From contig OU612066.1 of NCBI GenBank assembly GCA_914767715.1, positions 20,062,283 through 20,126,282 of the forward strand: a stretch of 64,000 bases of DNA, read 5' to 3'. Position 1 is the stretch's first letter. Every line of letters starts with the position of its first letter. Both the position numbers and the translations under genes were made by a program. Source of the stretch: Membranipora membranacea. Lineage: Eukaryota > Bryozoa > Gymnolaemata > Cheilostomatida > Membraniporidae. The notes under the pieces are model-generated. The model did no database searches, was not told where the DNA came from, and saw nothing but the letters and a program-made list of their open reading frames with translations. Shown in pieces: positions 5,108 to 63,569 of the stretch.

Positions 5108-5416
5108 TCACTTGAGATATTGCAGCACGACCAGGCTGACATTTGCTGGGGTTCTGGACAACCAGGATGTGACCTGCTCCAGCAGCGATTCTGTAGGTTT
5201 GGGTTTTGTTATACTTTCAGCATTAACCTCGCGGTCTATAATATCACCAATTGCCTTTAGTCTTCCAGCTACTTCTCTATAACCGTCTTGCTGATCGCAA
5301 GAATGGAGATGGTTGTTGTACAGAGGATCCTTGTTGATATTAAGAGGTAGTGCCATTGGTCTGATTTCCTGCAGACATTTTATTGCGATTTGTTTATCTT
5401 CAAATCGTCTACCCAT
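5108..5416 (-). CDS. Small BH3-like family protein, copy 1 (diverged)
   Basis: A 102-residue protein starting MGRRFEDKQ, the most divergent member of the array. The N-terminal 40 residues are polar and share only PMALPL with the others. The BH3-like core V-A-G-R-L-K-A-I-G-D-I-I is intact, with the h1-h4 hydrophobic positions and the Gly-Asp pair. It is followed by PTESLLEQVTSWLS, after which 8 residues present in other copies (around GTQGVLRR) are missing, so the last helix joins directly. A TATA-like TATATAAAAA lies 115-124 bp upstream on the minus strand. The stop overlaps a donor-like AA|GTGAAT and a second donor (ATG|GTGAGT) follows. Function is inferred from the motif only. Confidence 0.8.
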   Translation of the reverse strand: MGRRFEDKQIAIKCLQEIRPMALPLNINKDPLYNNHLHSCDQQDGYREVAGRLKAIGDIIDREVNAESITKPKPTESLLEQVTSWLSRTPANVSLVVLQYLK

Positions 5417-5530
5417 ATTATATATTACTGTTGAGAAGTTTTACGGAATGCTAAAGTTTGACAGCTATGAGCTTTGTGATGTTCTCTTCTCGAGGTTTGA
5501 ATTTGTTCTAAAGCTCAACCTCACCCCCTT

Positions 5531-5777
5531 TTTTTATATAGTGACAGTGTTCGCAGTTTGCGCTATCGGGAAAGTTTATTGTGTGGCTAAGTTTTCCAGT
5601 GACTACCTCAGACACATTGTATTGAACGAGCATATGAAACTTTATCTCAGATGACTTCCCTCCTACAATCACTGGTTAGTTGCCACCTTATCTCGTTTGT
5701 TATTATGACCATGACAAATGCTGGTAAGTGGTCTCTGACTAATTTTTACTAATCCACAAGGCAAGGTAGGGATTTCC
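5531..5777 (-). promoter_or_regulatory. Putative promoter of copy 1 (TATA and kappaB-like site)
   Basis: Reading the minus strand, TATATAAAAA is at 5531-5540. An NF-kappaB-like GGGATTTCC (plus-strand sense) is at 5769-5777, 229 bp further upstream. Both spacings match those of the other copies, although the rest of the sequence does not align with theirs. Confidence 0.4.
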
Positions 5778-8700
5778 TGAAGCATTCTGCTCTATAATCT
5801 ATGTTATGATGGCATACCTGAACATGACAGGCACTGTGTTTGAAAAGGTGTTTTTCTGGTGCCTGGATAAGTTGAGAGTTCAGCGTTATACGTTTGTTTA
5901 ACACTGCTTGCTCGTTTGATTACGAATAATGTGCTGCAGCACTTTGTAAAATGTTTGATCAATGTCATTTTGTGACGCCTCAAAGTGTACAAGGAAAATC
6001 CATGTAGGTATGACATAACAAAACTGCTCTGACAAATAAACTTGGCTTATGTACCTGGGACTAACCTTCTAGATTTCACCATGAAATAAATTTGTTAGCA
6101 ATAAAATTTTCAGGAATCTTCAATTATTAAAAAAACCCTGTTCCCATGAATAAGAGGCGTTGTAAGTTTCATGGCCATGTCCAAAAATAAATTATCAAGC
6201 TGTGATTTATCCTTGATATTAATCCTTGGCTACACCATCTAAAAGCTGAAGTCCTATATGGCAGTATAAAGCAAAGTACCTCGGAATCCCTCTTGTTTTC
6301 CGCTTGAGTCTCGGTGTGTCAATACCAGCACACAGAACCCACCGAAAATTCTTTACATAACTCCAATGTTTGGAGAGTACACAATCACAGATTGTAGGAG
6401 TGTCAGGACATCATTATCAATACGCCTATGACACATTGGCATGACCTTCAAGTTGTTTAATGCTTGTACTAGGAATGATAAGATTTCAATCAGATGCAAT
6501 AATGATACCTCAATGGTTCTGGAAAAAACAAGTCTTACTGTGGACTTCCTATGAAAAATCAAATATTATTGCCTCACATATGAAGTTTTGTCTCTTTATC
6601 AGAATATATAGCTTAGGTATTTTCCTTGTAACGCTTTAGGTGTCTGTGCGGTAGACCCCCCTCCCTGAAAACCTTATTAGATATATTAAGCGGAATACAG
6701 AAACATTTTGACTAAACCCTATTCTTGCCACGTTCTCCTACGTGACAATAGAGGGAAAACTGATCAGCAGTCCGCACACACATTCTGGTCATTATCATGT
6801 CAGCTGTCAGGAAAATCCATGAGTCAACAACGCTTTGGACAATTTGTCAGTTATTTTGTTTAAAACTGTCACATGCCTCATCAACACAGTTTCCTTGAAC
6901 CTTTATTCAGAATTTATAATATGGATAGTATAGTACTGTCACTATTATACATTCTATTGAGTTTTCAATTTATTTCTGGGCTAAAGTTATTTCTTAATTG
7001 ATCTAAACTTTAAGTAGCTGATGTATTGCTGATGTTTCACATAAATAAATACATAATTTCATCACTAGCACCAATCACCAGCCCTAACGTCAGATGACCT
7101 CCTATAGGAAACCGTGCTACGGCATAAAAACCTTTGCTAAGCAAAGCTTACTTGCTCTGAATCTAAAATACTTGATTCTGATGGTGAAGTACATTGGATC
7201 CTCTGAGGGAAAAGTACTTAGAAATGAACGAACTACCAAAAATTCAGGATCATCCCACATGTCTGGTAGTCTTATTGTGACGTCTTAGCTGACAATTCAG
7301 TTATCCCTAGAAACTTATATCAGGCTATCAATGTCAGTAGAAAGACGAGTAGGCCAGGATGACACACAATATGATGAGCTATCTAAATATGGCTAATCTT
7401 TGCAAATAACTCTCTTTGATGTTTTTGCATTGAAATTCATGCTGCTTTTCTTTTCTTGTTTAAGGTTATAGTATTCATAAAATCAAAGTTTCTGACCTGT
7501 CAAGGATATCTGGGGTTAAATTTCTTGAACACTCAGTGACGCTCTCTTGACCTTCTCCAAAAGTTTGTACTCAATAGAAATCCCGTGTTTGATTCATTGA
7601 AGCTTATTGTAATCAGAATCGCTTGATGCTCGATTCATTTTTCATTTACTGAAGTATAACTACTTTACACTATTGCATAGCACTGATTTACTGCCTCAGG
7701 CTGTTGCCCTAAAATACTAAACTTGCAACTCTGCAAGTTAGCAAAATCCAAAACTTCCTGTGCAGACAATCAAATCATTGTGTTTTAGAAAACTTATGAA
7801 TCGTCTATTCTTATGACGTAGTAGCATAACTCCCAAAAGATTTGTACCAAAAAATAAGCAAGAGAAAAACACTAAATTACATCAGTGATTTTTTTCCACC
7901 CTCACTTAAAAACTTACAATGAATGTAAATCTGCTATAACGACCAAGGGACATAGTTGTTGCCATGAACCCTTACTCTTTTTGATCCTTTGTAGGTGGTA
8001 TGTGATTAGAATTGTCTTACATGTTACACTACCTAGCTTTAATGTGATCAGTAATCTCATTGTGCCTAAAACACGCAACAAACAAAAATCTACACTTCAT
8101 GGTCATGCACAATAATGCAGTTGGAAACTCTTAAAATCCATGATTGTCGGCCTCAAAAACAGAGTTGTGATGTAGAGAAACATGAAAACTTTGTCAAATA
8201 GATATTGATTATCAGATTTTATATGGCGCACTCAACCCGGTTTTTTGTTCCCTGCTGCCACAATGAGCCGAATCTCAATGTGATATTTTATTTATTTGTC
8301 CATACAGTATGACATAGATAGGCAGGTAATTTACCTACATTATACGTAGGGAAACTGTCGGGCGGGTGGCAAGAGTTTGAGGGGGGGCTCAGACTAGAAA
8401 TGTAGAATACTATCAGGTTAATACATCATGCATTGGTAGGATTTGTAACTTTCCCAAGTTCAGAGGAGGATAGCATATGCTACTTGCTGCCACAGCTTTG
8501 GCACTGACACTTTGACAAAATGGTGAATCGGCCTTTGCTCGAGGCTAGCATACAAAGCAGCGTTCTACATGACCAATGACCTGCCAGTGCCAATAACAGA
8601 TCAATGATGCCTCTTACCTCGTAAACATATTTGTTTGGTGATGTGAAGTAGGATAGCGGTCAAGTAACGCAATTTGTGCTGGACAGAGCTGCTGCAAAAA

Positions 8701-10819: not shown

Positions 10820-11143
10820 TCACTTAAGATGTTGTAGCAACATCAGACTGACTTCAGCTGGAGAAGCTTTTCTCAGAACTCCCTGAGTACCAGACAACCA
10901 GGATGTGACCTGCTCCAGCAGTGATTCTGTAGGTTTGCGTTGTGTTATACTCTCAAAGAGAACCTCTCTGTTTATAATGGCACCAATCTCCTTCAGTCTA
11001 TCAGCTACTTCTCTGTAAACCTCCTCCTGATCAGGGGAGTTAACTGGGCTCTCGTTCTGTAACTCAAAACGGTTATCTAGAGGTAGAGCAATTGGCCTGT
11101 TTTCTTGTGCATCTCGAAGAGCTATATGCTCACATTTGCCCAT
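10820..11143 (-). CDS. Small BH3-like family protein, copy 2, with Gly-Ala in place of Gly-Asp
   Basis: A class K protein of 107 residues starting MGKCEHIAL. The reading frame stays open 24 codons further upstream, but the MGK start aligns with all other class K copies and leaves a normal 5'UTR length. The BH3-like core reads L-K-E-I-G-A-I-I: the aspartate invariant in the other eleven copies, and the key charged residue of BH3 motifs, is replaced by alanine. The rest (PTESLLEQVTSWLS, SPAEVSLMLLQHLK) is well preserved. It is on the opposite strand from copies 3-12. The Asp loss could abolish or re-target partner binding, or mark early decay. Confidence 0.85.
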   Translation of the reverse strand: MGKCEHIALRDAQENRPIALPLDNRFELQNESPVNSPDQEEVYREVADRLKEIGAIINREVLFESITQRKPTESLLEQVTSWLSGTQGVLRKASPAEVSLMLLQHLK

Positions 11144-11288: not shown

Positions 11289-11460
11289 CTTATATATACA
11301 AGCGGCTACTGCACTCACCCAACCTTACATGACACCTCATTTGACCTATTTGATACAATCGTTGTAAACATTCTTAACTACTCTGCACTCAAATCAATCA
11401 ATAGGGCACACTTCTTTGTTATTGTTTTGGTCATGTGACCAAACAACTTTGGAAATCCCC
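11289..11460 (-). promoter_or_regulatory. Promoter of copy 2: TATA, class K element, kappaB-like site
   Basis: On the minus strand TGTATATATAAG is at 11289-11300 and the class K element GTCATGTAAGGTTG at 11319-11332. A canonical NF-kappaB-like GGGGATTTCC is at 11451-11460, about 150 bp upstream of TATA. Same layout as the plus-strand class K copies, but a different kappaB sequence. Confidence 0.6.
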
Positions 11461-13399: not shown

Positions 13400-13450
13400 G
13401 GCGGTCATGTAAGGTTGTACAGGTGCACAAGCTGTGTGTGTATAAAAGGC
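13400..13450 (+). promoter_or_regulatory. Core promoter of copy 3
   Basis: The class K element GGCGGTCATGTAAGGTTGTA (from 13400) is followed by TATAAAAGGC at 13441-13450. Transcription would start near 13470, giving a 5'UTR of about 115 bases. Confidence 0.65.
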
Positions 13451-13588: not shown

Positions 13589-13912
13589 ATGGGCAAGAAT
13601 GAGAAAATAGCAGTTGGAGAGGCACAAGATAACAAGCCAATGGCTTTGCCTCTCGATAAAAACATGATACAACAGAACGAGAGTCCAATTATCTCACCTG
13701 ATCAGGAGGAGGTTTACAGAGAAGTAGCTGATAGACTGAAGGAGATTGGTGACATCATAAGCAGAGATTATCTCTCTGAGAGTATAACACAACGCAAACC
13801 TACAGAATCACTGCTAAAGCAGGTCACATCGTGGTTGTCTGGAACTCAGGGAGTTCTGAGACGAGCTTCTCGAGCTGAAGTCAGTCTGATGGTGCTACAA
13901 CATCTCAAGTGA
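13589..13912 (+). CDS. Small BH3-like family protein, copy 3 (class K)
   Basis: A 107-residue protein, the first plus-strand member. Residues 1-40 are polar and probably disordered (MGKNEKIAVGEAQDNKPMAL then SPDQEE). Residues 46-58 form the BH3-like helix V-A-D-R-L-K-E-I-G-D-I-I-S. Residues 61-107 are the conserved C-terminal block with Trp82. No signal peptide or membrane segment is visible. The start is supported by alignment of all class K copies and a TATA box 148 bp upstream. The stop sits in CTCAA|GTGAGT, the best donor match in the array. Unlike most copies it has no clear kappaB-like site; the matching position reads TTGGCAATTTCAA. Confidence 0.87.
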   Translation: MGKNEKIAVGEAQDNKPMALPLDKNMIQQNESPIISPDQEEVYREVADRLKEIGDIISRDYLSESITQRKPTESLLKQVTSWLSGTQGVLRRASRAEVSLMVLQHLK

Positions 13913-19112: not shown

Positions 19113-19114
<2 letters not shown>

Positions 19115-19562: not shown

Positions 19563-19695
19563 TGATTGGTCGATTGATGTACACGATAACACTGAAGTGT
19601 GCCAGGTTGTGTGAGGTGTTTCTAAGGTGAAGTGTGGGGTCATTTACAGTGCACACATAATAATTATAATTTCTTTATTCCTCTGCTATATAAAG
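19563..19695 (+). promoter_or_regulatory. Promoter of copy 4
   Basis: An inverted CCAAT box (TGATTGG, from 19563) and TATATAAAG at 19687-19695, 89 bp before the ATG. GGGAATTCCC, present in sister class I promoters, is replaced here by unrelated sequence near 19535. Confidence 0.6.
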
Positions 19696-19775: not shown

Positions 19776-20102
19776 ATGGGTATAACTCATGAGCAAGCAG
19801 CCATTTCTAATGGACATGGGTACAGACCAATAGCTCTGCTTCTCACTAACAACATTGCACAACAGCCAGAGAGCCCAGTTAACTCCCCTGACCAGGGAGA
19901 AGTTTACAGAGAAGTAGCTGATAGACTGAAGGATATTGGTGACATTATAAACAGAGAAGTTATCATTGAGAGTATAGCACAACACGAACCTACAGAATCG
20001 CTGCTGGAGCAGGTAACATCCTGGTTGTCTGGTACTCAGGGAGTTCTTAGTAGAGCTTCTCCAGCTGAAATCAGCCTTATGGTGATGCAACATCTCAAGT
20101 GA
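19776..20102 (+). CDS. Small BH3-like family protein, copy 4 (class I)
   Basis: A 108-residue protein starting MGITHEQAAISNGHG. The frame is open 48 codons upstream, but a TATA box lies inside that extension (19687-19695) and MGI aligns with the MGK starts, so the shorter form is chosen. BH3-like core V-A-D-R-L-K-D-I-G-D-I-I at residues 48-59, Trp at 83, C-terminus SPAEISLMVMQHLK. No signal peptide is visible. The stop overlaps AA|GTGAAT. This is the only class I copy without the upstream GGGAATTCCC. Its possible second exon stays open much longer than in its sisters. Confidence 0.87.
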   Translation: MGITHEQAAISNGHGYRPIALLLTNNIAQQPESPVNSPDQGEVYREVADRLKDIGDIINREVIIESIAQHEPTESLLEQVTSWLSGTQGVLSRASPAEISLMVMQHLK

Positions 20103-21388: not shown

Positions 21389-21869
<481 letters not shown>

Positions 21870-40501: not shown

Positions 40502-40543
40502 AATCATGATGGAGTGCATTTTCTTTTCCCCTTTAATATTGGT

Positions 40544-42036: not shown

Positions 42037-42239
42037 GAGGCTTTGAATGTGGTCATTAAAACAGAGGATCTAAATTAGTAGGAAGGAAGTAAGTGCACTT
42101 AGAATATTGTTAATATGATTAATTGTTCGATGCATAGTCATTACAACGTCAGCTTTGTTTATAACATAGAAGGAAGGAGATTTGAGGATAGAAACACTGT
42201 ATTCAAAAAAATCATGTCTTAAATCCTCATAAATAATCA

Positions 42240-43335: not shown

Positions 43336-43523
43336 ATGTTGGGCATCCTTAACCCAATAGTAATTAATGGTAGATAAAATAGCCTGACATGGTCGGACAA
43401 CTCCAATGCAAAGATTTGCCCTACTGAGTCATTCATATATATGAATCACTCATTGTCCAGGGTTTTTATGGGTACCAATCGTGGGATATATAATATATGA
43501 CACTTTATTGCACAGATGTGCGT

Positions 43524-43545
43524 GTATATATATATATATATATAT
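43524..43545. repeat. (TA)n microsatellite
   Basis: TA tract before CAAGGCTAGCTATTGTC, same position as at 19.1 and 62.6 kb. Confidence 0.8.
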
Positions 43546-43941
43546 CAAGGCTAGCTATTGTCGTATTCAAATTTCTCCTTCACAAACAATCGCAACAAAT
43601 AGCTGTGTCGTCTTGTGACAGACATAATAATGTGATAACAACTCCGTCTTCATGTACTGTCATGCTTCATCAATAGTTTGGCCATAACAGAACTGCTGGA
43701 TGTACCAACACTTTAGTTAAGGTATTCACTGGGATGCAAAACAGATATAATGCTCCCAAATTAAGATTTACTGAATGGCCCATTCATATTGCAGGAAATC
43801 TCAGACTGCAGGTAGCGAATACATGGACCAAGATATTATGCTCATCTAAAAAATCTTTCGAATTGAAATTTTATATAAAGCAAGTATGCCTTGTAGAAAC
43901 GAGTTGTGCTCGTGTAATGGAACACATGAATGAGCTACAAT

Positions 43942-44119
43942 GGGAATTCCCAACACATACTAAAGCTGTGATTGGGCGATTGATGTAAACAATAACATTG
44001 AAGTGTGCCAGGTTGTATAAGGTATTAGTAAGTATAGATTTCTAAGGTGAAGTGTGGGGTCATTTACAGTGCACACATAATCATAATCATTTCTATAAAT
44101 CTCTGTTACTTTATAAAGG
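43942..44119 (+). promoter_or_regulatory. Promoter of copy 8: kappaB palindrome, CCAAT, TATA
   Basis: GGGAATTCCC at 43942-43951, inverted CCAAT (TGATTGG) near 43971, TTATAAAGG at 44111-44119, 94 bp before the ATG. Confidence 0.65.
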
Positions 44120-44204
44120 TTTGCACTACACGGAAGGGAATCACATCAACTCAAAACCTAAGCAATACACCACAGATTTAAATTTACTGCATAATAAAAA
44201 TAGT

Positions 44205-44531
44205 ATGGGTATAACTCATGAGCAAGCAGCCATTTCTAATGGACATGGATACAGACCGATAGCTCTGCTTCTCACTAACAACATTGCACAACAGCCAGAG
44301 AGTCCAGTTAACTCCCCTGACCAGGGAGAAGTTTACAGAGAAGCAGCTGATAGACTGAAGGAGATTGGTGACATTATAAACAGAGAAGTTATCATTGAGA
44401 GTATAGCACAACACGAACCTACCCAATCACTGCTGGAGCAGGTCACGTCCTGGTTGTCTGGATCTCAGGGAGTTCTTTGTATGGCATCTCCAGCTGTAAT
44501 CAGCCTGTTGGTGATGCAACATCTCAAATGA
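44205..44531 (+). CDS. Small BH3-like family protein, copy 8 (class I, possibly decaying)
   Basis: A 108-residue protein starting MGITHEQAAISNG. The BH3-like core reads A-A-D-R-L-K-E-I-G-D-I-I: the first hydrophobic position is Ala instead of Val. The normally invariant end is altered (VLCMASPAVISLLVMQHLK), and PTES has become PTQS. The last codon is AAA, so the GT of the donor overlapping the stop is destroyed, uniquely in the array. The frame is still intact. This may be relaxed constraint or specialisation. The start was chosen as for copy 4. Confidence 0.83.
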   Translation: MGITHEQAAISNGHGYRPIALLLTNNIAQQPESPVNSPDQGEVYREAADRLKEIGDIINREVIIESIAQHEPTQSLLEQVTSWLSGSQGVLCMASPAVISLLVMQHLK

Positions 44532-44849
44532 GTGTGATAAACTGAACCTGCATGCATGTGGTGAGTGAAATGCTGTGCAATTCAAGGTGAAAAGAATGTG
44601 TCAGGCTTTTGTTTCATCCTATTAGCTAAATTTGACCACTGTCAGGTGAAGAATATCCATACCACACCTTTTAAGGTGATAAGGTTAATGATAATATTAT
44701 GTAGTCTCACATGATATCAATTTAGCTCCCAAATTGCAGTTACATTGTGGGTATACTGTTAACATTCTCTATTGGCAATACTAACAGTTTTGATAGCATA
44801 TCATTCTATAGTGTAGACTTGCTCTTAAACACAATGATTTTTTTTGCAG

Positions 44850-44931
44850 TGCTTCGATATGTTATGGGCAAACCGCTATCCTGGTGCTACGCTTTCTTCT
44901 AGTCCACTGCAGTCAAAATTTCTGCCACTGA
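44850..44931 (+). other. Remnant of the putative terminal exon at copy 8
   Basis: Acceptor TTTTTTTTGCAG ends at 44849. The frame matches copy 5 and encodes I-L-V-L-R-F-L-L-V-H-C then TGA. The matching donor is lost here; a second donor (ATGTG|GTGAGTG, about 30 bases past the stop) remains and would place the splice in the 3'UTR. Confidence 0.25.
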
Positions 44932-45306
44932 AACAAGATAAATCTTGCAATAAAGGAGTGGCAGGTCGGTTAATTTACCAATGCATTCCAGCTACGGCTG
45001 CCGCAGTTTCGTGATCATCTACTCCGTCCTGTTGGAATCTCATCACATCTGTTCTACCTTGTCGTATTATTTTTCGAATCTCTACAAATCTAGACAAACT
45101 ATCAATTTCAACTCTCGGTAACACAATGTTCAAAATTCTCACTAAGCAAGACGTATTATCTCTTTTGACTTATTTTATTTTTATTCACTTCTGATATCAG
45201 TATTAAAATTTTTGTGCCAACAGCTTTCCTATTCCACACTTTTTCAATGCTTCTTTATTACATCAATAACCCATGTTGTATTGTTTCTACTTACTTGATA
45301 TAAAAA

Positions 45307-49740: not shown

Positions 49741-49982
49741 TTGGAAATTCCAACGTACTCTTAGGTGTGATGACTGCGCTAAACACCCTGTTTGATAACA
49801 TGAATTACCAATACAGTAAGGTGTTTGCCCTTTGATTGTATGTTATGAAGCACTATTACAGTGCAGCTTAGCATGGCAGCGTGGATTAGAATCTGTAATA
49901 TATAATACCAACAATATAGGTAAGGACAACTGAGGCGGTCATGTAAGGTTGTACAGGAGCACAAGCTGTGTGTATATAAAAG
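49741..49982 (+). promoter_or_regulatory. Promoter of copy 9: kappaB-like palindrome, class K element, TATA
   Basis: TTGGAAATTCCAA at 49741-49753, GGCGGTCATGTAAGGTTGTA from 49934, TATATAAAAG at 49973-49982, 126 bp before the ATG. Confidence 0.65.
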
Positions 49983-50098: not shown

Positions 50099-50422
50099 AT
50101 GGGCAAGTTTGAGCAATCAACAGCTGGGGATGTACAAGAGAACAGGCCAATGGCATTGCCACGCAATGATAACACTGGTAAACAGAACGAGATCCCGGTT
50201 ATCTCCCCTGATCAGGAGGAGGTCTACAGAGAAGTAGCTGAAAGACTGAAGGAGATTGGTGACATCATAAACAGAGATTATCTCACTGAGAGTATAACAC
50301 AACACAAACCTACAGAATCTCTGCATGAGCAGGTCACATCCTGGTTGTCTGGTACTCAGAAAGTTCTGAGACAAGCTTCTCCAGCTGAAGTCAGTCTGAT
50401 GGTGCTACAACATCTCAAGTGA
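50099..50422 (+). CDS. Small BH3-like family protein, copy 9 (class K)
   Basis: A 107-residue protein starting MGKFEQSTAGDVQENRP. BH3-like V-A-E-R-L-K-E-I-G-D-I-I-N at 46-58, Trp82. Differences in the conserved block: ESLHEQV for ESLLEQV, and GTQKVLRQAS for GTQGVLRRAS. No partner in the 19-kb duplication; it lies between the two units, after the 47.9 kb relic. The stop overlaps AA|GTGAAT; an acceptor (TTGTCACAG, ending 50759) would in phase give a tail with D-S-I-M-I-L-F-F-C-A. Confidence 0.87.
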   Translation: MGKFEQSTAGDVQENRPMALPRNDNTGKQNEIPVISPDQEEVYREVAERLKEIGDIINRDYLTESITQHKPTESLHEQVTSWLSGTQKVLRQASPAEVSLMVLQHLK

Positions 50423-52245: not shown

Positions 52246-52994
52246 ATGGTACCGATAAATACAGTGAAGCTGGCAATCAATAAAGTAGAGGCAGAAGTAA
52301 GCTTGAGATTTATGTATTCCAATTAACCGTCAGTACTTATCTTCAGAAGTGTTATGAAACTTTCGCAATATAGAGTGGAGCAAGGGCCCCACGCTGTCCT
52401 TATACAAGGTGGTATTTTGCTGCCTTCAGGTAACATTCCGTTGGATTAGGAGAATTTTAGACAAAAGTAGCCGATTTACAGGTTACACAATATCACAGTA
52501 TTTTTCGGAAATGTGTTATGTCAATATTTTAGTATTCATGAACAGATACATTACAGTTAATCAGAATGCAACCAAACCTCCGTGAACTGGTTTGGCTTAG
52601 AGTACAAGCATGAGAGTGATGGGGCCAACTTTTCTGCACTGAAACAATGAAGGGTTGGCAGCCTCCCTGGTTACGCAACAGAATTGGGATGCTCATCAAC
52701 ACATAGGAGTGGCTTCATGCTTCTGGGGCCGGCCATGAGGAAGTTGTACTCGAAGGTCTCGAAACAGTGCTTGACCCATGGTTTCTAGCTGAAGATCTGT
52801 GCGTTGTGCAGTGGTATGCGCACCACTGTATGTTGTATCCTGAATTTAGAACTTATGAAAAATATATGAAAACAAATCATTATTTTGACATAAAGGCCTG
52901 ACCTTATAAAAAGGATCAATGTGCGTTAGTTTCACCGCAGATGCCTGGATATTCCCTACACACCCAAGCAACAGGTTTTATGTTGGTTTATTTA

Positions 52995-53209
52995 TTGGAA
53001 ATTCCAACGTACAAATAGGTTCAATGACTGCGCAAAACACCAGGTCTGAAAACAGGAACTAAATATGAAGTGTGACCTATTGATTTGTTATTATGAAGCA
53101 CTATAACAGTGCAGCTTAGCACAGCAGCTTACATCCAATAATATCAGAGAGGTCATATGAGGCGGTCATGTAAGGTTGTACAGGCGCACCAGCTGCATGT
53201 ATATATAAG
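52995..53209 (+). promoter_or_regulatory. Promoter of copy 10: kappaB-like palindrome, class K element, TATA
   Basis: TTGGAAATTCCAA at 52995-53007, GGCGGTCATGTAAGGTTGTA from 53161, TATATATAAG at 53200-53209. Confidence 0.65.
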
Positions 53210-53326
53210 GCTGAAGTAATATAGAATGGCAACAAACATATTCACAGCTTGAACAGTGAAACATCTAAAGAACGCTAGCTAAAGAAAACTATTATTTACT
53301 CCAACTCCAAAAACATATAAGAAAAA

Positions 53327-53650
53327 ATGGGCAAGTGGGAGCAATCAGCAGTCGGAGATGTACAAGAGAACAACCCAATGACTTTGCCTCTCGATAACAA
53401 CATGTTAAAACAGAACGAGAGCCCAGTTACCTCTCCTGATCAGGAGGAGGTTTACAGAGAAGTAGCTGACAGACTGAAGGAGATTGGTGACATCATAAGC
53501 AGAGATTATCTCTCTGAGAGTATAACACAACACAAACCTACAGAATCACTGCTGGAGCAGGTCACATCCTGGTTGTCTGGTACTCAGGGAGTTCTGAGAC
53601 GAGCATCTCCAGCTGAAGTCAGTCTGATGGTGCTACAACATCTCAAGTGA
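53327..53650 (+). CDS. Small BH3-like family protein, copy 10 (class K)
   Basis: A 107-residue protein, near twin of copy 6, starting MGKWEQSAVGDVQENNPM. BH3-like V-A-D-R-L-K-E-I-G-D-I-I-S at 46-58, Trp82, C-terminus SPAEVSLMVLQHLK; it reads as the class K consensus. In its 3' flank the acceptor-like TTTTCAG of copy 6 has become TTTTCAC (53994-53996), so any downstream splice would be lost here. The near-identity with copy 6 suggests recent duplication or gene conversion. Confidence 0.88.
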   Translation: MGKWEQSAVGDVQENNPMTLPLDNNMLKQNESPVTSPDQEEVYREVADRLKEIGDIISRDYLSESITQHKPTESLLEQVTSWLSGTQGVLRRASPAEVSLMVLQHLK

Positions 53651-54793
53651 ATTTGGTTGGGAATCTAGAAGCTGCACGATGGTGAACTGTAGACCTAGTA
53701 AGGTGCTACCAAATAATACCTGTCCAAACCTACAATCGCTTTCAGCTGTTTTCGGGAACATGGTGTGTTTTCTGGCAAGCATTATAAGCAGTTGGCAAAA
53801 TGAACAGTCTGACATTGAAAACATTGGCATCGGAGTCACATTGTTCTGTGTATCAACCTGACAATCTTCAGCATTATTGCTGACATTGATAAAACCTACA
53901 AAACTGTGAAATTCTAACCGCCAAATCTTTGGTATAGACAAATTATGATTGGCTCTCAAATGCTATCATCATATCAGTATTACTTTTTATTTTCACAAAT
54001 TTTTTACAACAGCGCGCCAAACTTTCTGAGATTCCAATACGATCTCTTAGTCTTATGCACCAGTATTATTTTAATTGTATTGCATCAATGTGCCATACTC
54101 CCTGAGTGATTCAGAAGCAATCTCACTTTTCTTCCCTCTTTCTCTGAGTTCTATATAATAGTTTTGTCAACATTTCGTGCATTGTTAATCGCCTTACATT
54201 CTCATATCGTTTTATTCAATAAAAAAAAAGGTTGACATCAAATGAACGAGATCCTCGAGCATGTCAAACACAATCATGCTAAAACTTAGAAAAAAAATTT
54301 GCAAAAATGATTTGATCAGTCTTACATCATAGCTGTATACATTTGGTACCATGATTAATTCTGCCGCAAATAAATTAAGTGGGTGGATGAGACAAGCCAA
54401 TATAAGTGTTCCTATAGTTATAGTTGATCAGTGAGTTTATTGGTTTGACAGACAAAGTGCTGACACAGGTTGAACTTCAATCCAATCACTCACTTTCAAC
54501 AGTAAGCTTAGTAGAATAACTTTATAATCTGTCCATCACAATAACAGCAATCACTAGCAGACATAAAGAATGTTGCAAAATATTACAAACGTCATACATT
54601 GATTCATATTAAAAGATGACTGTATGTTTTTGGCGACTGCGTAGCTTTTTGGTAGCACATGCATGAGGTAGGAATGTCAGTAAAGCTTATATTATGAGTG
54701 CTTGAGTTGTAAACAGGTATTTAATTATATTCCATAACAGATACAAAACAATATGAGAAATCCATAACGCTACAAAAGATATAGGATACGGGT

Positions 54794-54842
54794 TCAGTTG
54801 AGTTGAGGTCATTGTGAGGCAGCTGACAGCTCGGCCAATCAC
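54794..54842. repeat. CCAAT-block copy h
   Basis: Near-identical to copy e, in the copy 10/copy 11 interval. Confidence 0.5.
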
Positions 54843-55568
54843 GCTGCAGTAGAAGCGGTTAATAAATGGGATGAGGTAGAATGTTATTAGTGCACTTAGA
54901 GTCTATGCAATAATGACAATTTGTTATGATACATGGTCATGACATAGACAGTGTCTTGTTCATGGCACATATGATGCATATTTCAGTACCACACAGTCTA
55001 AGGTGAATCTTTGGTCACCAAGTGAACCTCATCCATGCCAACACAGTCAATAGCCTCAACAAAGATCTTGAGTGATGTGAATATGTTATGATGACGTTAA
55101 ATGTTTGAGCACTCATAATTAAACTTAACTCTAAATACAAGATGGACTCACATAACAGATGGCCACAGATTATGGAAGTAATTATGGGGCTGAGTAGTAT
55201 TTTGGTTTAGCATCACCATGACATGTTGCTTAGTTGCAAAAATAATTCCAATTCATACCTAAACAAACCTTGCATTGCAGCTAAGATTACTTCATAAAAA
55301 GTTTATCGAGTATATTATGACAGAATCTGATGATTTTTAAATCACATTACACAACAAAGGGAGCGTGGTACTAAAATATAGTATTTGAAACATTACAGGT
55401 CGTGAAAGATGAATCAAGAGATTTATAAGGTACCACTACCCACTCTTAAAATTGGGTAATTTGACATTGACATTCCGACAATAATTGAATGGAAAGTTTC
55501 TTATATTTACATGTGCATGCTGTAGTTGAGAGAATGTATATTTTTTATGTTCTCTTTCTGGATGGTTG

Positions 55569-55605
55569 AGAGTTATGCCACCACAACAAACAAGTAGACA
55601 ACTCC
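55569..55605 (-). repeat. 37-bp palindromic spacer element, E10
   Basis: Duplicate of E6, same sequence over the element. Confidence 0.6.
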
Positions 55606-55822
55606 CTTAAATATCATATTCGCTCTGTCACCATGTAATTGCATAACATTGTATTTAGTTTTTTAGAAAACTATGTGTTAAATTGTTGAAGATAATGGCA
55701 GAACATTTATACTCAAACAGGAACTGGTGCAGCAATAATTGGCAATTTGGTGCAAAACATCCGCTTGATGTAGCCAAGATAATATTGCGCAGACAGTATA
55801 ATTACATTATAATCACAGCATA

Positions 55823-55903
55823 GAGTATGTAAGGTTTCAGCAGCTGATGTCTATCGGTTAATCTGAGTCGATGATCAGAGGTTGAACGGAGAAAGCAGCG
55901 CCT
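55823..55903. repeat. GTAAGGTTTCAG block, P7
   Basis: Duplicate of P3, 1.4 kb upstream of copy 11. Confidence 0.5.
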
Positions 55904-56961
55904 CCTTAACATGCCACCAACAGTTAGAGTGAGGCTAGCAATCAATACAGCAGAAATTAGCTTGAGATTTACCTGTATCAAAATCACCAAGAGCTATAAT
56001 CTATGCAGGGATTGACTTTTTTTTGCAATATTAAGTGGATCGAGGGCTTAGCAGCTGTCCTTATGTTTTATGTCTTATGTTGCTGCCTGATTCAGGTATC
56101 AATACTGTAGGTTTAGGAGAAAGTCAGACATAAGTAGGTAATTTGCAGGTTAAACAAACTTCACATCAAGGTGTTATGTGTTTATTCATAATGCGTTGTG
56201 TCAATATTTTATCATTTTATGAACAGATACACTACGGTCAATCAGAATGCAATTGATATTGGAATTATATCAAATATTAACCTACGGAAAATATTTCAAT
56301 ATGTGATCATTCCACACCCAATTCAAACAAGACATGTTGAATAATTTGATTAAATATTACATACTAGATGAATTTATAACATAAACTCTCCCTCCTCCAA
56401 CGAGAGCAATTTAAATTAAATGTGTTGAATTTGAGTAGCAGACTATGTCACCAGCTCCGGCGAGTTGACGGAAAGCAAACATCCCTGCACTGGTTTGGCT
56501 GAGAGTACAAGCATGATAGTGATGTGAGAAACATTGTTGCACTGAAACAATGAAGAGTTGGCAGCCTCCCTGGCTGCGCAACAGCGTAAACACACTGAGT
56601 ATGTCAAAACACTGAAGCTGGCAATATGCGCTGAGGGCTTGATGAGATGGATTGAGATGCTCATCAACACAAAGGGGTGGCTTCATGCTGCAGGGGCTGG
56701 CCATGGGGAGGTTGTACTGGGGAAGGCCTCGGAACAGCGATTGACTCATGGTTTCTAAAGACCTGTGTGTTGTGCAGTGGTATGCGGGGTTACTGTATGT
56801 TGTATCCTGAATTGAAACTTTTGAAAAAGCTATGAAAACAAATAATTATTTTGACCTGAAAGCTTGACCTTAAATTAGGAGATGAATGTATGTTAGTTTC
56901 ACCGCAGACGCCCAGATATTCCCTACACACCCAAGTAACAGGTTTTACGTTGGTTTATTTA

Positions 56962-57124
56962 TTGGAAATTCCAAAAAACTGAAAACAGGAACTAAATATA
57001 AAGTTTGACCTATTTATTGGTTATTACAAAGTAGCACGGTAGCTTACAGCATCAACAAAATGAGCGAGGTCATACGAGACGGTCATGTAAGGTTGTACAA
57101 GTGCACCAGCTGCATGTATAAAAG
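56962..57124 (+). promoter_or_regulatory. Promoter of copy 11: kappaB-like palindrome, class K element, TATA
   Basis: TTGGAAATTCCAA at 56962-56974, GACGGTCATGTAAGGTTGTA from 57078, TATAAAAG at 57117-57124. A deletion of about 40 bases after the palindrome brings it closer to TATA than in copy 7. Confidence 0.65.
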
Positions 57125-57245
57125 GCTGAAGTAATATAGAATGGCAAGAAACAAATTCACAGCTTTCACAGTGAAACACCTGAAGACCGCTAGCTAAAGA
57201 AAACTATTATTTACTCCAACTAAAATTCATAAAATATAAGAAAAA

Positions 57246-57569
57246 ATGGGCATGTGGGAGCAATCAGTAATTGAAGATGCACAAAGGGCCAAGCCGGTGG
57301 CTTTGCTTCTAGACAATAACATGGTGAAACAGAATGAGAGCCCTGTTACCTCCCCTGATCAGGAGGAGGTTTACAGAGATGTAGCTGAAAGACTGAAGGA
57401 GATTGGTGACGTCATAAGCAGAGCTCATCTCTCTGAGAGTATAACACAACACAAACCTACAGAATCACTGCTGGAGCAGGTCACATCCTGGTTGTCTGGT
57501 ACTCAGGGAGTTCTGAGAAGAGCATCTCCAGCTGAAATTAGTCTTATGGTGCTACAGCATCTCAAGTGA
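57246..57569 (+). CDS. Small BH3-like family protein, copy 11 (class K)
   Basis: A 107-residue protein starting MGMWEQSVIEDAQRAKP; Lys3 of class K is Met. BH3-like V-A-E-R-L-K-E-I-G-D-V-I-S at 46-58 (Ile to Val just after the Gly-Asp), then SRAHLSES. C-terminus SPAEISLMVLQHLK. Duplicate of copy 7 with about ten changes, several non-conservative in the N-terminal tail, and few in the conserved half. The stop overlaps AA|GTGAAC. Confidence 0.88.
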   Translation: MGMWEQSVIEDAQRAKPVALLLDNNMVKQNESPVTSPDQEEVYRDVAERLKEIGDVISRAHLSESITQHKPTESLLEQVTSWLSGTQGVLRRASPAEISLMVLQHLK

Positions 57570-58652
57570 ACCAGGTGGAGGATTAAGATACTGCAGAATG
57601 ACGAACATTTACAAATGAAAAACTGAAGACCTAATAAGGTTCTATCAATACAAGTCCTAACCTAAAATTGCTTTCAGCTGATCTAAAGAAGTTGAGTGTT
57701 TTTCAGAAGAGCTCTGTGAACAGTGTTGCGACATGGATATTCCGCCATTGTTATTCCAGGTACCAATTCCTGTATCAAACTGACAATATCTAGCAGTATC
57801 TCTGATTGGATAAAACCTACAAATAAATATTCCAAGGAACCCTACATACACCTACATCACACCCTACATCACTGTGTCATATATCAGTATTATTTTTATT
57901 ATTACAGATTTTTATCAATTTAATAGCAATCTCATTTTTTTGGTCATGTGCCATAGACCTTACCGTAATCTTTTACCTTTTTTGGGGGCACTTTTACTCT
58001 ATCTTCCTAAAATTCTATTTAGTTTCCAGTTTTTATAATGCAGCCTGAGCTAAAATATACCATGCTAACCTGACACCAATGAATTCAATTATAATTATTG
58101 TTGAATCAAGGAATTCAGTTTGAACACAGTCAGAATAAAAGGCGTAAATTAAATACATGATTATATCCGTCTCCCAGATGTATGTGGCCGTTTTCATGAT
58201 TAATTCTACCTCAATATATCATAGAGGGTGTATATGTAACGAATGCAACAGGACGATTTAAATATTAAATTAGTAAATTTTATTTTATTTATAGTCGATC
58301 AGTGGGGTTAATGGTCTTACAGCGAAAGTGTTGAAATGGGTTGAACTTCAATTCAATTCAATGGGGAATTTTCAAATCTGTCCATCACAATAACAGCGAT
58401 TAGTAACAAACACACATAATGTATAATGATATAAAAAACATAATACATTGATTCATATTAAAAGACTTTCTTCAGCCTTTTATATTTGCGAAGGTTTATG
58501 TTTATGTTTATGTGATGTCTGAAATAAACTCATGCGTAACTCTGCAAAATAGAGTTACATGCCCTTGAAAAGTAAACAGGTGTTCAATGTTTTATAACAT
58601 GTAGAAAACAATATGATGAATCAATAAAGCTAAAACGATATAATATTCAACC

Positions 58653-58697
58653 TCAGTTGAGTTGGAGTCATTAGAAGGCAGCGGACAACCAATCAGG
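58653..58697. repeat. CCAAT-block copy i
   Basis: Same internal deletion as copy f (GGCAGCGGACAACCAATCAGG). Confidence 0.5.
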
Positions 58698-59231
58698 ATG
58701 TAGTGAAAGTAGTCAAGGGTCGTCTAAGAAACAAGTGCGCTTAGAATCGCTTCCGATATGATCAATTGTTTGATACATACTCATACAATGGACAGTGGTA
58801 AGTATTCAGGTAAGTTTGCCGTGCTGAACTTGACCTGTAATGCAAGGCAGACCTGAGTACATATCTGATAAAGGTTCTTGCACAAAATCAATGCTGCTGA
58901 ATTCAGCATGGTGTTACTGACCCGATCATCTGAGGTTACTAACAGAGGTTTTTGTTGATGACCTTTTTGACCTATTTTGCATTGAAGGTTTGCATACTTA
59001 GATTGTATGTGTCTATTTTATTGAGAATGCTCCATAATGATATTGATTCGCTATTGTAAGAGACCTCATTCTTGCCATCACTATAGTTGAAGACGTGAAA
59101 ACTATTAACCAAAACTGTTTATCTGTAAGTTTATACACAGCTGCAGACCTTGATAATGATGTATTATAATGGGAGGTTTAGGCTGACGACCTTCACTCAG
59201 AGTGAAAATGTTATAAATCAGTATGGCTCCC

Positions 59232-59299
59232 ACGGCCGGTGGGGATGGGGGGATGTGGAGCGTCGGGCGAGGGCACGGGTCTGGGGGACTCAGACTAGG
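59232..59299. repeat. Dispersed G-rich element
   Basis: CGGCCGGTGGGGATGGGGGG, GTGGAGCG, GGGCGAGGGC, GGGTCTGGGGG, CTCAGACTAGG. The fuller version of the element deleted at 40.34 kb. Confidence 0.5.
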
Positions 59300-59465
59300 C
59301 TGTGCTTAGTGTAAGTGTGCAATGAAGTTTGAAATTAGATTATGATTCACTAAATAATATATAACACCTCAAGTCGTTTTCTATTAATCAAGGCTGATGC
59401 ACTGTTAGACTAAAACTAACCTTTGCCATTCATTGCTAAATATTATGTATTCTTTATTCAAATTA

Positions 59466-59502
59466 GGAGTTGTCTGCCTCTTTGTCAGGGTAGTATAAAT
59501 CA
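59466..59502 (+). repeat. 37-bp palindromic spacer element, E11
   Basis: Duplicate of E7, but the right arm is degraded (ATAAATCA instead of ATAACTCA). Confidence 0.55.
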
Positions 59503-59562
59503 AATCATCATGGAGTGCATTTTCTTTTCCCCTTTAATATTGGCTTGTCTTTGGAAGATTTT

Positions 59563-59591
59563 CGTGTAGCACAATCACGAAAGTCTTCCCC
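59563..59591. mobile_element. Mini fold-back insertion, unit B copy
   Basis: Duplicate of the 40.55 kb element. One arm base differs (AAGTCTTCC) but still pairs as G-T. The left target repeat is degraded to TTGTCTTT. Confidence 0.55.
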
Positions 59592-60094
59592 TTATCTTTA
59601 CAATGAAAGTATGGAAAAGTCAGCCGTAGAACTAGCTGACCCCTTTGATAAAGCTTTGTTTTGCAACATATCATTTCTTCGTTGAAATAACCTTAAATAA
59701 CTGACAACAATGACATAGCACCCTTTGATGATACAAAGTATAATAGCGGAGTAAAATAACTATGGTAAGTACATTTTCCACAATAAATGCGATGTAAATC
59801 TTTCATACACCCTTCAAATATTGTGCTGCATTCTACAGAAGTAGTGTTTTTTTTATATATAATTTTGAACCATTTTTTGAAAACAACCACTGAGGTATAG
59901 TTGAATACAAATCAGTGCGCCCAGAAGATGAATAGGTTTTAATGATGATCGGAAAGCACCGACAATGTGAAATTTCTACTTGACCCTATGCATAGTATAT
60001 GTGGAAAAACATCTAACCGATGCAACAAGGATATTATATTATAGATACCATATTATAGTCACTCTGTGCGCATGCATACTACAATGAAATAACA

Positions 60095-60179
60095 GGATAT
60101 TTAAGGTTGCAGTCTTACATACAAGGTCTCTGACGCGAACTATGGGTGATGACCTGAGTAAGCATCGCATACTACACAC
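60095..60179. repeat. GTAAGGTTTCAG block, P8 (diverged)
   Basis: Duplicate of P4, 3.1 kb upstream of copy 12. Confidence 0.4.
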
Positions 60180-60970
60180 AATCTGATCAATATGTATAAC
60201 GTTAGCTTGAGAATCACCTACACCGTAATACCTGATAGAAGTTATATATATATATAAGAACTCCACTATGTGTGGAGAAATCAGGGCTATACTGTTGTCC
60301 TGGTAAAAGCTGTTACTTTGCAATGCTGCCTGCCTACAACAAAAGGTAATTTACAGGTCATGCAAACAAGTGATTTATTTGTCTATATGTTGTTAGGTAA
60401 ATATTTTGTTATTTGTTAACTGACACCTGACACGGAGTCAAACGGAATGCAAACAATACATATATCAAATATTAACAAATAAAATGGCAATATATCAAAA
60501 TTTGTATAGTGCGTCATTCAAACAAAAAACTTACTAGCTGTTTAGCTAATGGGATATATGAGTAAAGTACCTAAACAAAATCCTCAGAAATTTACTGGTT
60601 TTACTGGTTTTTTTGATAGATATCAGTTTTTGAAGTGAAGCTTTGGACGATGGATTATTTGTTACATCATCAAAGACTGTATCAAATATTTATTCTGTTG
60701 GAAACTTGTATATGAGACATGAGTACACAACTCGTTGTGTCAACAAGTTTTAACCGTTCCATCTGGGCGGGTGGTTGAGTGGTGTCCCCACCCCCATCCA
60801 CGGCAGCCCGTCCAGACTATACTAACATAGCCCGAAATGAACGCAGTTCAGGAGTAGCAAAATAGAGTTACACGCGCTTGAGTAGTAAACAGGTATTCAG
60901 ATTTTTTTTATAACACATAGAAAACAATATGATAAATCAATAAACCTACAAAAGAGGTAATATACAATTT

Positions 60971-61019
60971 CAGTTGAGTTGGGGTCAATGGGAGGCAGCT
61001 GACAGCTCAACCAATCATG
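60971..61019. repeat. CCAAT-block copy j
   Basis: Duplicate of copy g, GGGAGGCAGCTGACAGCTC followed by AACCAATCATG. Confidence 0.5.
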
Positions 61020-61279
61020 AGGCTTTGAATGTGGTCATTAAAATAGAGGATCTAAATTAGTAGGAAGGAAGTAAGTGCACTTAGAATATTGTTAATATGA
61101 TTAATTTTTCGATGCATAGTCATTACAACGTCAGCTTTGTTTATAACATAGAAGGAAGGAGATTTGAGGATAGAAACACTGTTTTAAACACAGTTTACAT
61201 CAATTGTAGTTATATTTAATGTTGAGACCATATCTGTCCCTAACTGCGTACATATATATATCTCTCCCTCTCTCGCTCT

Positions 61280-62276
61280 CTTGCAGTCAGTCGATGCGAC
61301 TAAGACTGTTCTATGATTTTGGCTTTGATTTGGTTGGTCAGGTATAATGAGAATATTGTGGGAGCAAGAACATATCCCTGCTTGACACCATTGGTCACTG
61401 CAAACTCATTCGATGTGTCTCTACCTTGTACTACTTTGGCTTGCATCCCCATATGAAGGGCGTCAATCAGGTTTGTGACTTTCTTTGTGAAGCCAAACTT
61501 CTTCAGTGTATCCAGAGGCCTTCCCTTGATACTGTATCAAAGGCTTCAGTAAAGTCTATAAATACAGCATATAGCTCCCTGTTCTGTTCAGTACATTTCT
61601 CTTGTATTTGGCGCAAGCTAAACACCATATCAATAGTGCTTCTGCTGCTACGAAAAACACACTGTGTCTCAGGTAGGATATTTGGAGTTATCTTTTCACT
61701 GATTCTGTTGAGGATTATTCGGGCCACGATCTTACCGGCTATAGAGAGCAGTGAGATTCCTCTGTAGTTACCACAGATCTTCCTACTGCCCTTTTTGAAA
61801 ATGGGCACAATGTTTGCATACTTCCAGCTCTGTGGCATCTGCTCGTTCTTCCAGATAAAAACAATCAGGTCATGCAGTCTTTCTTTTAACTTCAGTCCGC
61901 CATGCTTCCACACCTCTGCTGGAATGCCACACTCTCCATGGGCCTTATTCTCCTTCGTTGCATCTATGGCATTCAGCAGTTCAACAAAGCTTGGCGTGTC
62001 ATCCAGACTTTCATCAGGCGGCATGTCTGTGAGACTGCTTAGAGCTTCATGATCCACAGTCCCGGGTATATTCAGCAGGTGGTCAAAATGCTGTGCAAAC
62101 CTTTTTAAGGTGTCATCCTTTGCTGTTAATACTGTCTCACCATCCTCATTTTGTGGCCCATACACCTCTCTAAGGCAATTGTAAAATGCCTTCATGTCAT
62201 TTTTATCAGCTGCTCGTTGGAGTTCTTCCGCTTTTTTCTCCCACCATTCAGACTTCTTCTCACGAGTATACTTATG

Positions 62277-62280
<4 letters not shown>
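61280..62280 (-). pseudogene. Truncated, frameshifted non-LTR retrotransposon (reverse transcriptase fragment)
   Basis: The minus strand encodes the finger-palm part of a LINE reverse transcriptase: EWWEKKAEELQRA, PQSWKYANIVPIFKKGS, GNYRGISLLSIAGKI, LPETQCVFRSSRSTIDMV, then AVFIDFTEAFDTVSREGLW (normally FTKAFD). Frame breaks near 61500 at GLW, then continues as LKKFGFTKKVTNLIDALH and FAVTNGVKQGYVLAP (normally KQGC). The catalytic FADD region, endonuclease and 5' end are missing. It interrupts a TA microsatellite, with TA tracts at both ends, and is absent from unit A. Clade not assigned. Confidence 0.85.
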
Positions 62281-62307
<27 letters not shown>

Positions 62308-62308
62308 T
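62281..62308. repeat. (TA)n microsatellite at the retrotransposon boundary
   Basis: About 14 TA units; a matching shorter TA tract is at the other end (near 61252-61260). Confidence 0.8.
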
Positions 62309-62485
62309 GATTGGCCCCAACAAAGTGTCACTCAAAAATAAGGAGTCATTTTGTATGACCCACAAAAAATCATGTCTTTAATCCTCTTATATAATCATGT
62401 TGGGCATCCTTAACCCAATAGTAATTAATGGTAGATAAAAAAGCCTGACATGGTCGGACAACTCCAATGCAAAGATTTGCCCTAC

Positions 62486-62513
62486 TGAGTCATTCATATA
62501 TATGAATGACTCA
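62486..62513. promoter_or_regulatory. 28-bp perfect palindrome with two AP-1-like ends
   Basis: TGAGTCATTCATATA and its complement end to end; both ends read TGAGTCA, the bZIP/AP-1 consensus. In unit A (43426-43453) one half has a mismatch (GAATCACTCA). About 750 bp upstream of the class I gene in both units. Function inferred only. Confidence 0.4.
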
Positions 62514-62982
62514 TTGTCCAGGGTTTTTTGGGTACCAATAGTGGGATATATAATATATGACACTTTATTGCACAAATGTGTATATATATATATATGAATA
62601 TATCAAGGCTAGCTATTGTCACATTCAAATATCTCCTTCACAAACAATCGCAACAAATAGCTGTGTCGTCTTGTGACAGACATAATAATGTGATAACAAC
62701 TACGTCTTCATGTACTGTCATGCTTCATCAATAGTTCGGCCATGACAGAACTGCTGGATGCACCATTCACTGGGATGCAAAACAGATATAATGCTCCCAA
62801 ATCAAGATTTACTAAATGGCCCATTCATATTGCAGGAAATCTCAGACTGCAGGTAGCGAATACATGGACCAAGATATTATGCTCATCTAAAAAATCTTTC
62901 GAATTGAAATTTTATATAAAACAAGTATGCCTTGTAGAAACGAGTTGTGCTCGTGTTATGGAATGCATGAATGAGCTACTAT

Positions 62983-63156
62983 GGGAATTCCCAATGCAGT
63001 CCAAAGCTGTGATTGGTCGATGATGTAAACAACATTGAAGTGTGCCAGGTTGTGTGAGGTGTTAGTAAAGTATAGATTTCTAAGGTGAAGTGTGGGGTCA
63101 TTTACAGTGCACACATAATCATTATTATTTCTTTATTCCTCTGCTACTATATAAAG
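62983..63156 (+). promoter_or_regulatory. Promoter of copy 12: kappaB palindrome, CCAAT, TATA
   Basis: GGGAATTCCC at 62983-62992, inverted CCAAT (TGATTGG) from 63011, TATATAAAG at 63148-63156, 95 bp before the ATG. Confidence 0.65.
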
Positions 63157-63242
63157 GTTTGCACTACATTGAAGAGAATCACATCAACTCAAAACCTAAG
63201 CAATACACCACAGATTTAAATTTACTGCATAATAAAAATAGT

Positions 63243-63569
63243 ATGGGTATAACTCATGAGCAAGCAGCCATCTCTAATGGACATGGATACAGACCGATAG
63301 CTCTGCTTCTCACTAACAACATTGCACAACAGCCAGAGAGTCCAGTTAACTCCCCTGACCAGGGAGAAGTTTACAGAGAAGTAGCTGATAGACTGAAGGA
63401 TATTGGTGACATTATAAACAGAGAAGTTATTATTGAGAGTATAGCACAACACGAACCTACCGAATCACTGCTGGAGCGGGTCACATCCTGGTTGTCTGGC
63501 ACTCAGGGAGTTCTGAGAAGACCATCTCCAGCTGAAGTCTGCGTGATGGTGATGCAACATCTCAGGTGA
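63243..63569 (+). CDS. Small BH3-like family protein, copy 12 (class I)
   Basis: A 108-residue protein starting MGITHEQAAISNG, close to copy 5. BH3-like V-A-D-R-L-K-D-I-G-D-I-I at 48-59. Changes in the conserved half: ESLLERV for ESLLEQV, RRPSPAEVCVMVMQHLR for RRASPAEVSVMVMQHLK. The last codon AGG makes the donor overlapping the stop CAG|GTGAAT, a better consensus than in other copies. The start was chosen as for copy 4. Last gene in the window. Confidence 0.87.
   Translation: MGITHEQAAISNGHGYRPIALLLTNNIAQQPESPVNSPDQGEVYREVADRLKDIGDIINREVIIESIAQHEPTESLLERVTSWLSGTQGVLRRPSPAEVCVMVMQHLR

Follow-up and report, generated by a model that had tools for sequence, protein, structure and literature searches.

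We describe a multicopy cluster of small genes in the bryozoan Membranipora membranacea, whose products we interpret, with a probability of about 0.5, as a kB-inducible battery of BH3-only-like proteins that would bind the groove of Bcl-2-fold proteins and would likely be pro-apoptotic. The stretch of DNA analysed, called the window below, is 64,000 nucleotides long (C2:20062283-20126282, C2 being contig OU612066.1 of a 339-Mb assembly of 18 contigs) and carries twelve of the genes. The interpretation is drawn from sequence comparisons and combines three features of the family: a BID-type BH3 stretch, promoters that mostly have a kB-like site in addition to a TATA box, and a coding region whose last two thirds are much more alike between copies than the first.

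The window contains twelve intact single-exon open reading frames of 102, 107 or 108 codons. Ten lie on the plus strand, the other two are on the minus strand, and gene starts are spaced 2.4-10.1 kb apart. The initial annotation had described an array of twelve genes encoding proteins of 102-108 residues, and all twelve were recovered at these lengths; a tblastn search over the window found no 13th full copy. Naming each gene by its lower coordinate, class 1 comprises seven copies of 107 codons, at 10823..11143 (minus strand), 13589..13909, 34301..34621, 38169..38489, 50099..50419, 53327..53647 (used as the search query) and 57246..57566 (plus strand). Class 2 comprises four copies of 108 codons on the plus strand, at 19776..20099, 29891..30214, 44205..44528 and 63243..63566. 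The annotated division into two classes is real and needs a third, short form in addition, represented by the 102-codon gene at 5111..5416 (minus strand; BH3 core RLKAIGDII). This gene lacks 8 residues in the C-terminal part, which are also absent from 5/12 relatives found in ENA contigs.

The extent of 5108..63569 first given to the cluster proved too small, as the array runs past both sides of the window. A search of the assembly with a family protein returned 30 rows, 29 of them in C2:20.042-20.274 Mb (232 kb) and each at an E value of 5.2e-4 or better; the 30th (C6, E 7.5) is likely a chance match. Counts from this search are lower bounds, giving at least 29 copies. Broken copies are the one at window coordinate -9335, whose C-terminus lies in a different frame, and L054, which has an internal stop; the other 27 have full open frames. 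At its left edge the cluster includes three old copies with 35-42% identity to the queries. This subfamily (L055, L056 and L057, at window coordinates of about -20167, -14745 and -9) encodes 92-94 residues and retains an N-terminal MG and a C-terminal VLQHLK, with degenerate BH3 cores (KVRRTSDII, KLRITSAFI and KLRITGQFI). Outside the assembly, a protein search of ~5.8 billion sequences followed by a profile search yielded 12 relatives, all in ENA contigs, which include the long form and the same short form. In a tree, the window copies and the ENA sequences form separate groups. Viral contigs and prokaryote genomes gave pattern matches only, none encoding a relative.

The claim that eleven of the twelve window proteins match a BH3 pattern held, with L-x-x-I-G-D kept in 11/12 copies; the 10823 copy reads I-G-A (IGAII), its acid being replaced by Ala. 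The core is retained in 22/26 copies of the surrounding 224 kb, the -9335 copy included. Among the three far-right copies it is kept in L050, reads I-G-Y in L051 and is broken in L054, so that 23/29 copies carry it overall. Across 24 sequences from two sources, the hot-spot positions were Val in 22 and Ala in 2 (HP1), Leu in 24 (HP2), Ile in 24 (HP3), Gly in 24, acid in 23 and Ile or Val in 24 (HP4). The motif by itself is weak evidence, because a loose BH3 pattern also matches 11 of ~1125 unrelated window frames and 13/120 reverse transcriptases. A BH3 profile was built from ten human BH3 stretches. It scored the 24 members at a median of 12.4 bits, with 23/24 at 8.2-15.4 bits (highest in the window for the 50099 gene, 13.0 bits) and the 10823 protein, with Ala for Asp, at 4.3. 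The controls scored at most 9.3 bits for 4800 shuffles (two at 8.2 or above), 0.6 for 24 reversed sequences, 2.1 for 120 reverse transcriptases and 4.8 for unrelated window frames.

Searches not designed around the motif also returned BID. With the relative P0008 as query, PDB chains gave 10 matches at E values of 10 or below, and the top six were all BID (E 0.0042-0.2). A profile of the whole family gave 12 PDB matches, of which 6 were BID (best E 0.063), and a profile of the BH3 stretch gave 12 matches that included 3 BID chains, 1 BAX, 1 BAK and the chain Sc-apCC-2-MCL-1-1, by its name an MCL-1 binder design. In Pfam, BID (PF06393) was weakly matched by 19/20 members (E of 10 or below, under the cut-off) and was the only family matched by most of them. 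None of the 20 members matched PF00452, and no BH1 or BH2 pattern occurs in the six frames of the window, in agreement with the original statement that these regions are missing.

The promoters were scanned with ten site patterns and then with three kB versions. A TATA box (TATA[AT]A, ~70-160 bases upstream) precedes 12/12 window copies and 11/14 neighbouring copies, compared to 247/2000 random places. A relaxed kB-like 9-mer, GGRRWTYCC, chosen after viewing the window promoters and sought within 500 bases upstream, was found at 10/12 window copies; 1/2000 column-permuted motifs reached as many genes. Of the 15 window positions of this 9-mer, 13 lie in those upstream regions, three palindromic sites being counted twice. 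The strict kB decamer was weaker, being present at 4/12 genes and equalled by 20/2000 permuted motifs. With the motif fixed beforehand, in a test that covers only the 14 neighbouring copies, the 9-mer was found at 11/14 and none of 2000 permuted motifs reached this number. It was present at 1/3 far-right copies. Over 224 kb, the 9-mer has 35 positions, of which 24 are upstream of a copy, where area alone would predict 2.0. Since the copies share ancestry, this recurrence reflects conservation and not independent gains of the site. From the TATA boxes and kB-like sites that precede most copies, we infer that expression would be induced by a Rel/NF-kB-type factor.

The kB-like sites fall at similar distances from the genes. 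On the minus strand, they lie 362 bases before the 5111 gene (5769..5777) and 317 bases before the 10823 gene (11451..11459). On the plus strand, the site GGAAATTCC precedes the 34301 gene by 348 bases (33953..33961), the 38169 gene by 317 (37852..37860), the 50099 gene by 356 (49743..49751), the 53327 gene by 330 (52997..53005) and the 57246 gene by 282 (56964..56972). The palindromic kB-like decamer GGGAATTCCC precedes the class 2 genes at 29891 (264 bases; 29627..29636), 44205 (263 bases; 43942..43951) and 63243 (260 bases; 62983..62992), also on the plus strand. The genes at 13589 and 19776 have no kB-like 9-mer upstream. TATA boxes were located at 5535..5540 (-124 from the 5111 gene) and 11293..11298 (-155 from the 10823 gene) on the minus strand. 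On the plus strand, they were located at 13441..13446 (-148, 13589 gene), 19687..19692 (-89, 19776 gene), 29796..29801 (-95, 29891 gene), 34174..34179 (-127, 34301 gene), 38039..38044 (-130, 38169 gene), 44112..44117 (-93, 44205 gene), 49973..49978 (-126, 50099 gene), 53200..53205 (-127, 53327 gene), 57117..57122 (-129, 57246 gene) and 63148..63153 (-95, 63243 gene).

Synonymous divergence (dS) is unevenly distributed along the genes. Within class 1 (21 pairs), dS was 0.52 over codons 1-34 and 0.12, about four-fold lower, over codons 35-107; between classes (28 pairs) the values were 0.85 and 0.30. Counts at four-fold degenerate sites in 13 class 1 pairs followed the same division, with differences at 25/69 sites in codons 1-30 and 67/428 in codons 31-107. 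Jukes-Cantor distances of the flanking DNA were 0.23-0.51. The low synonymous divergence of the 3' part suggests gene conversion, which fits because the block of low synonymous change ends at the stop codon; constraint on the DNA itself may be an alternative cause. The ratio of nonsynonymous to synonymous divergence (dN/dS) over codons 35-107 was 0.43-0.47, whether pairs were taken within or between classes, and 0.33 when the 5111 copy was compared with the other copies. The BH3 stretch gave a ratio of 0.36 between classes and of 0.22 when the 5111 copy was compared with the others.

We considered whether each open reading frame could be just an initial exon, joined by splicing to others of a multi-domain Bcl-2 or BID gene, with the apparent stop being a splice donor. 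Over 26 copies, the frame ends mostly in AAG-TGA, in three old copies in AAG-TAA and in three others in AAA-TGA, so that most ends contain GTGA or GTAA as this explanation would predict. In addition, 2/12 ENA relatives (P0005 and P0007) read on beyond the position of the stop. The three AAATGA copies, one of them the gene at 44205..44528, contain no GT and yet stop there, which indicates that a splice donor alone does not account for the stop. Conservation also drops sharply at this point: the mean identity of class 1 pairs is 0.90-0.95 in windows over codons 31-107, falls at the stop and stays below 0.90 in every window of the following 2.2 kb, some based on one or two pairs reaching 0.89. 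Scanning every frame of the window for dN/dS revealed no further set of clearly coding frames that could represent downstream exons of the family. Together with the lack of a BH1 or BH2 pattern, these results make a first exon very improbable, and we rejected it.

The likeness to BID ends directly after the BH3 stretch. The C-terminal part alone gave 4 PDB matches, of which 3 were eight-residue matches to lectins and 1 was a canarypox Bcl-2-like protein (E 1.9). AlphaFold2 modelled the full protein with a mean predicted local distance difference test score (pLDDT) of 56 and a predicted template modelling score (pTM) of 0.23, and residues 31-107 with a pLDDT of 67 and a pTM of 0.48. The shorter model has a BH3 helix followed by three further helices at low confidence, and residues 1-38 have no predicted helix, also at low confidence. 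No usable fold match, for example to the eight-helix BID fold, was obtained for these models. N-myristoylation at the conserved Gly2 was considered and discarded, the sequence giving no fit to the PROSITE pattern.

Candidate partners are encoded in the same genome. PF00452 gave 12 matches in the assembly, 8 of them above the cut-off. L001 and L002 (73 and 53 bits) are open frames in which NWGR and WINQHGGW occur, and L004 contains a Bax-like exon with DGHFNWGR. Five partial PF00452 matches within 100 kb at C7 ~18.14-18.24 Mb form a small cluster of Bcl-2-fold genes. The Rel DNA-binding domain gave four matches at two loci. Peptidase_C14 (caspase-type) gave at least 145 matches, counted exon by exon, on many contigs. 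Many of these lie in local clusters of similar lengths on C1, C5, C9 and C10, and their abundance may reflect either extensive expansion or the presence of the domain in a repeated element. Five homeodomain matches in C1:21.41-21.47 Mb (61 kb), up to 92% identical to an Antp-type homeodomain used as query, form a Hox cluster that identifies the animal as a bilaterian and rejects a sponge origin, which had been considered at first.

In the mechanism that we propose, a stimulus such as an immune or stress response would bring a Rel/NF-kB-type factor to the kB site, and the factor would induce a short intronless transcript encoding a small protein, mostly with a BID-type BH3 helix. This protein would then occupy the groove of the animal's own Bcl-2-fold protein, leading to a Bax-type pore and to caspase activation. 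The first third of the gene would be free to drift while the remainder, comprising the BH3 stretch and the C-terminal helices, would be kept alike between copies, probably by gene conversion.

Several observations weigh against this interpretation. The best Pfam BID scores, 20.8 bits (P0011, E 3.1e-4) and 20.6 bits (P0008), are under the curated 25-bit cut-off. The first PDB match of the BH3-stretch profile was an alphaB-crystallin peptide (E 0.093), and a PDB search with a single window copy gave three matches, none of them a BH3 chain. The core is missing in 6/29 copies, namely 10823, L051, the broken L054 and the three old ones. All 24 sequences checked have Ile or Val directly after the acid, a position occupied by Glu, Asp, Ser, Lys or Gln in the ten human BH3s of the profile. 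Among the twelve copies, the C-terminal 45 residues are better conserved than the BH3 stretch (mean column identity 89% compared to 78%) and, for that reason, may matter more. The dN/dS of the BH3 stretch within class 1 was 0.66, and that within class 2 was 1.09, values based on few changes; with the lower ratios given above, this shows constraint on the BH3 stretch in older comparisons and none among young copies. The structure models, built from a shallow alignment, are of low confidence and neither show nor exclude a stable fold in which the Leu and Gly-Asp face would be buried. The promoters are related by descent, so that their kB sites are not independent. The reading of the initial annotation was upheld in part. 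A BH3-only-like nature is supported, as BID was returned by searches not designed around the motif, BH1, BH2 and PF00452 were lacking and Bcl-2-fold genes are present in the genome; the cell-death role is putative, given a sub-threshold Pfam score, copies without the core and a hydrophobic residue after the acid.

A competing explanation is that the genes encode a kB-linked family of short helical proteins, which might serve as effectors or adaptors in immunity, act through their conserved C-terminal helices and bind no Bcl-2 groove; their resemblance to BH3 would then have arisen by convergence on a common type of amphipathic helix. The greater conservation of the C-terminal part, the old copies that retain the C-terminus (VLQHLK) and not the BH3 core, and the hydrophobic residue after the acid all agree with convergence, as does a statement in PMC9171138 that BH3 patterns and alignments are poor predictors. 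We nevertheless consider convergence rather unlikely, since BID was the best PDB relative of P0008 with six matches in succession and the sole Pfam family matched by most members, and since the canonical hot spots are intact in 23/24 sequences, except for Ala at HP1 in two. Alternatively, the proteins might bind Bcl-2 grooves without killing, as modulators or decoys that compete with stronger BH3s, protect Bax-type partners or tune autophagy like the Beclin-1 BH3. The BH3 of Beclin-1 also has a hydrophobic residue after the acid, and the old copies have degenerate cores. TPT1, described in a passage of PMC9171138 as a BH3-like protein that activates BCL-XL, also speaks for such a role. Beclin-1 is, in contrast, a long protein with a coiled coil, according to a passage of PMC7022251, compared to 92-108 residues here, and we regard a modulator role as quite improbable.

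Returning to the kB-inducible, pro-apoptotic battery, we tentatively suggest a more specific form of it, a possibility that we hold with less assurance than the general interpretation. The ~27 intact clustered genes might constitute an invertebrate immune suicide battery, switched on together by NF-kB. Gene conversion would homogenise the cassette of BH3 stretch and C-terminal part, whereas the N-terminus and a small number of BH3 cores would diversify, which might tune the proteins to different partners of the Bcl-2 type or to Bcl-2 mimics made by pathogens.

Other features of the region were recorded. A segmental duplication on the plus strand joins 33806..44999 (left copy) and 52850..63999 (right copy), with pieces 88-95% identical. 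The DNA at ~24061-25672 is homologous to that downstream of the 13589 gene and has no gene copy before it, and is perhaps a unit whose gene was lost. Eight codons at 47902-47925 match the C-terminal end of the family (MVLQHLK followed by a stop; E 4.8), perhaps by chance or as the remnant of a lost copy. The window also holds a LINE-type reverse transcriptase fragment at 61503-62195 on the minus strand (PF00078, E 1e-13). It has 943 relatives at E 1e-10 or better; among the 120 listed, the five that carry an animal name belong to a fish, two tubeworms and two snails. Repeats in the window are ~60 tandem units of the 8-base repeat ATCAATCA at 21389-21869, open in more than one frame, and a tandem array of the TCCGGTTTTA type with periods of 10, 20 and 30 bases at 23364-23659. 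Outside the window, a Strabismus (Vangl) exon (L014:5897-6703), ~26 kb left of the left-most copy, serves as a landmark, and P-element-type transposase domains (PF12017, PF21787, PF21788 and PF21789; L024:150-3345) lie to the right of the main cluster.

BH3-only proteins tend to be few in number, are hard to recognise outside vertebrates and nematodes and, with the exception of BID, are largely disordered outside the BH3. Among the best open-access matches listed, from searches that included the motif letters, no title or abstract described a clustered or expanded BH3-only family, with or without a link to NF-kB. If our interpretation is correct, the 29 clustered copies with their common kB/TATA promoters would directly connect innate signalling with the mitochondrial switch for cell death. 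They would also provide a compact system for measuring BH3 specificity and concerted evolution in natural variants, acid-less copies included.

Among known systems, the Bcl-2-fold proteins (PF00452) have the BH3 motif in common with the family and their genes occur in the same genome; the family differs from them in having no BH1, BH2 or PF00452 match. Beclin-1 resembles the family in the hydrophobic residue that follows the BH3 acid, and differs in size and in its coiled coil (passages of PMC7022251). A sponge Bcl-2 protein binds a Bak-type BH3, as stated in part of PMC5386376, and in the passages available of PMC8998228 and PMC7022251, BH3-only proteins are reported as not found in sponges and placozoans. 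The same two sources describe single-exon BH3-only candidates in cnidarians, which are likewise small and intronless with the BH3 as the sole recognised motif. This likeness is drawn from their published descriptions, and numbers differ: passages of PMC7022251 count eight BH3-only proteins in mammals and four candidates in Hydra, compared to the 29-copy cluster here. BID, which according to part of PMC8998228 is present only from cartilaginous fish or gar onwards, is the best sequence match in both PDB and Pfam. The likeness covers ~30 residues around the BH3 with the frame QE--R--A--L--GD--R, and does not extend past the BH3 or reach the Pfam cut-off. BID has ~195 residues (197 in chain 2bid_A), compared to 92-108 in the bryozoan family, which further differs from BID in being a multicopy cluster with kB-like promoters.

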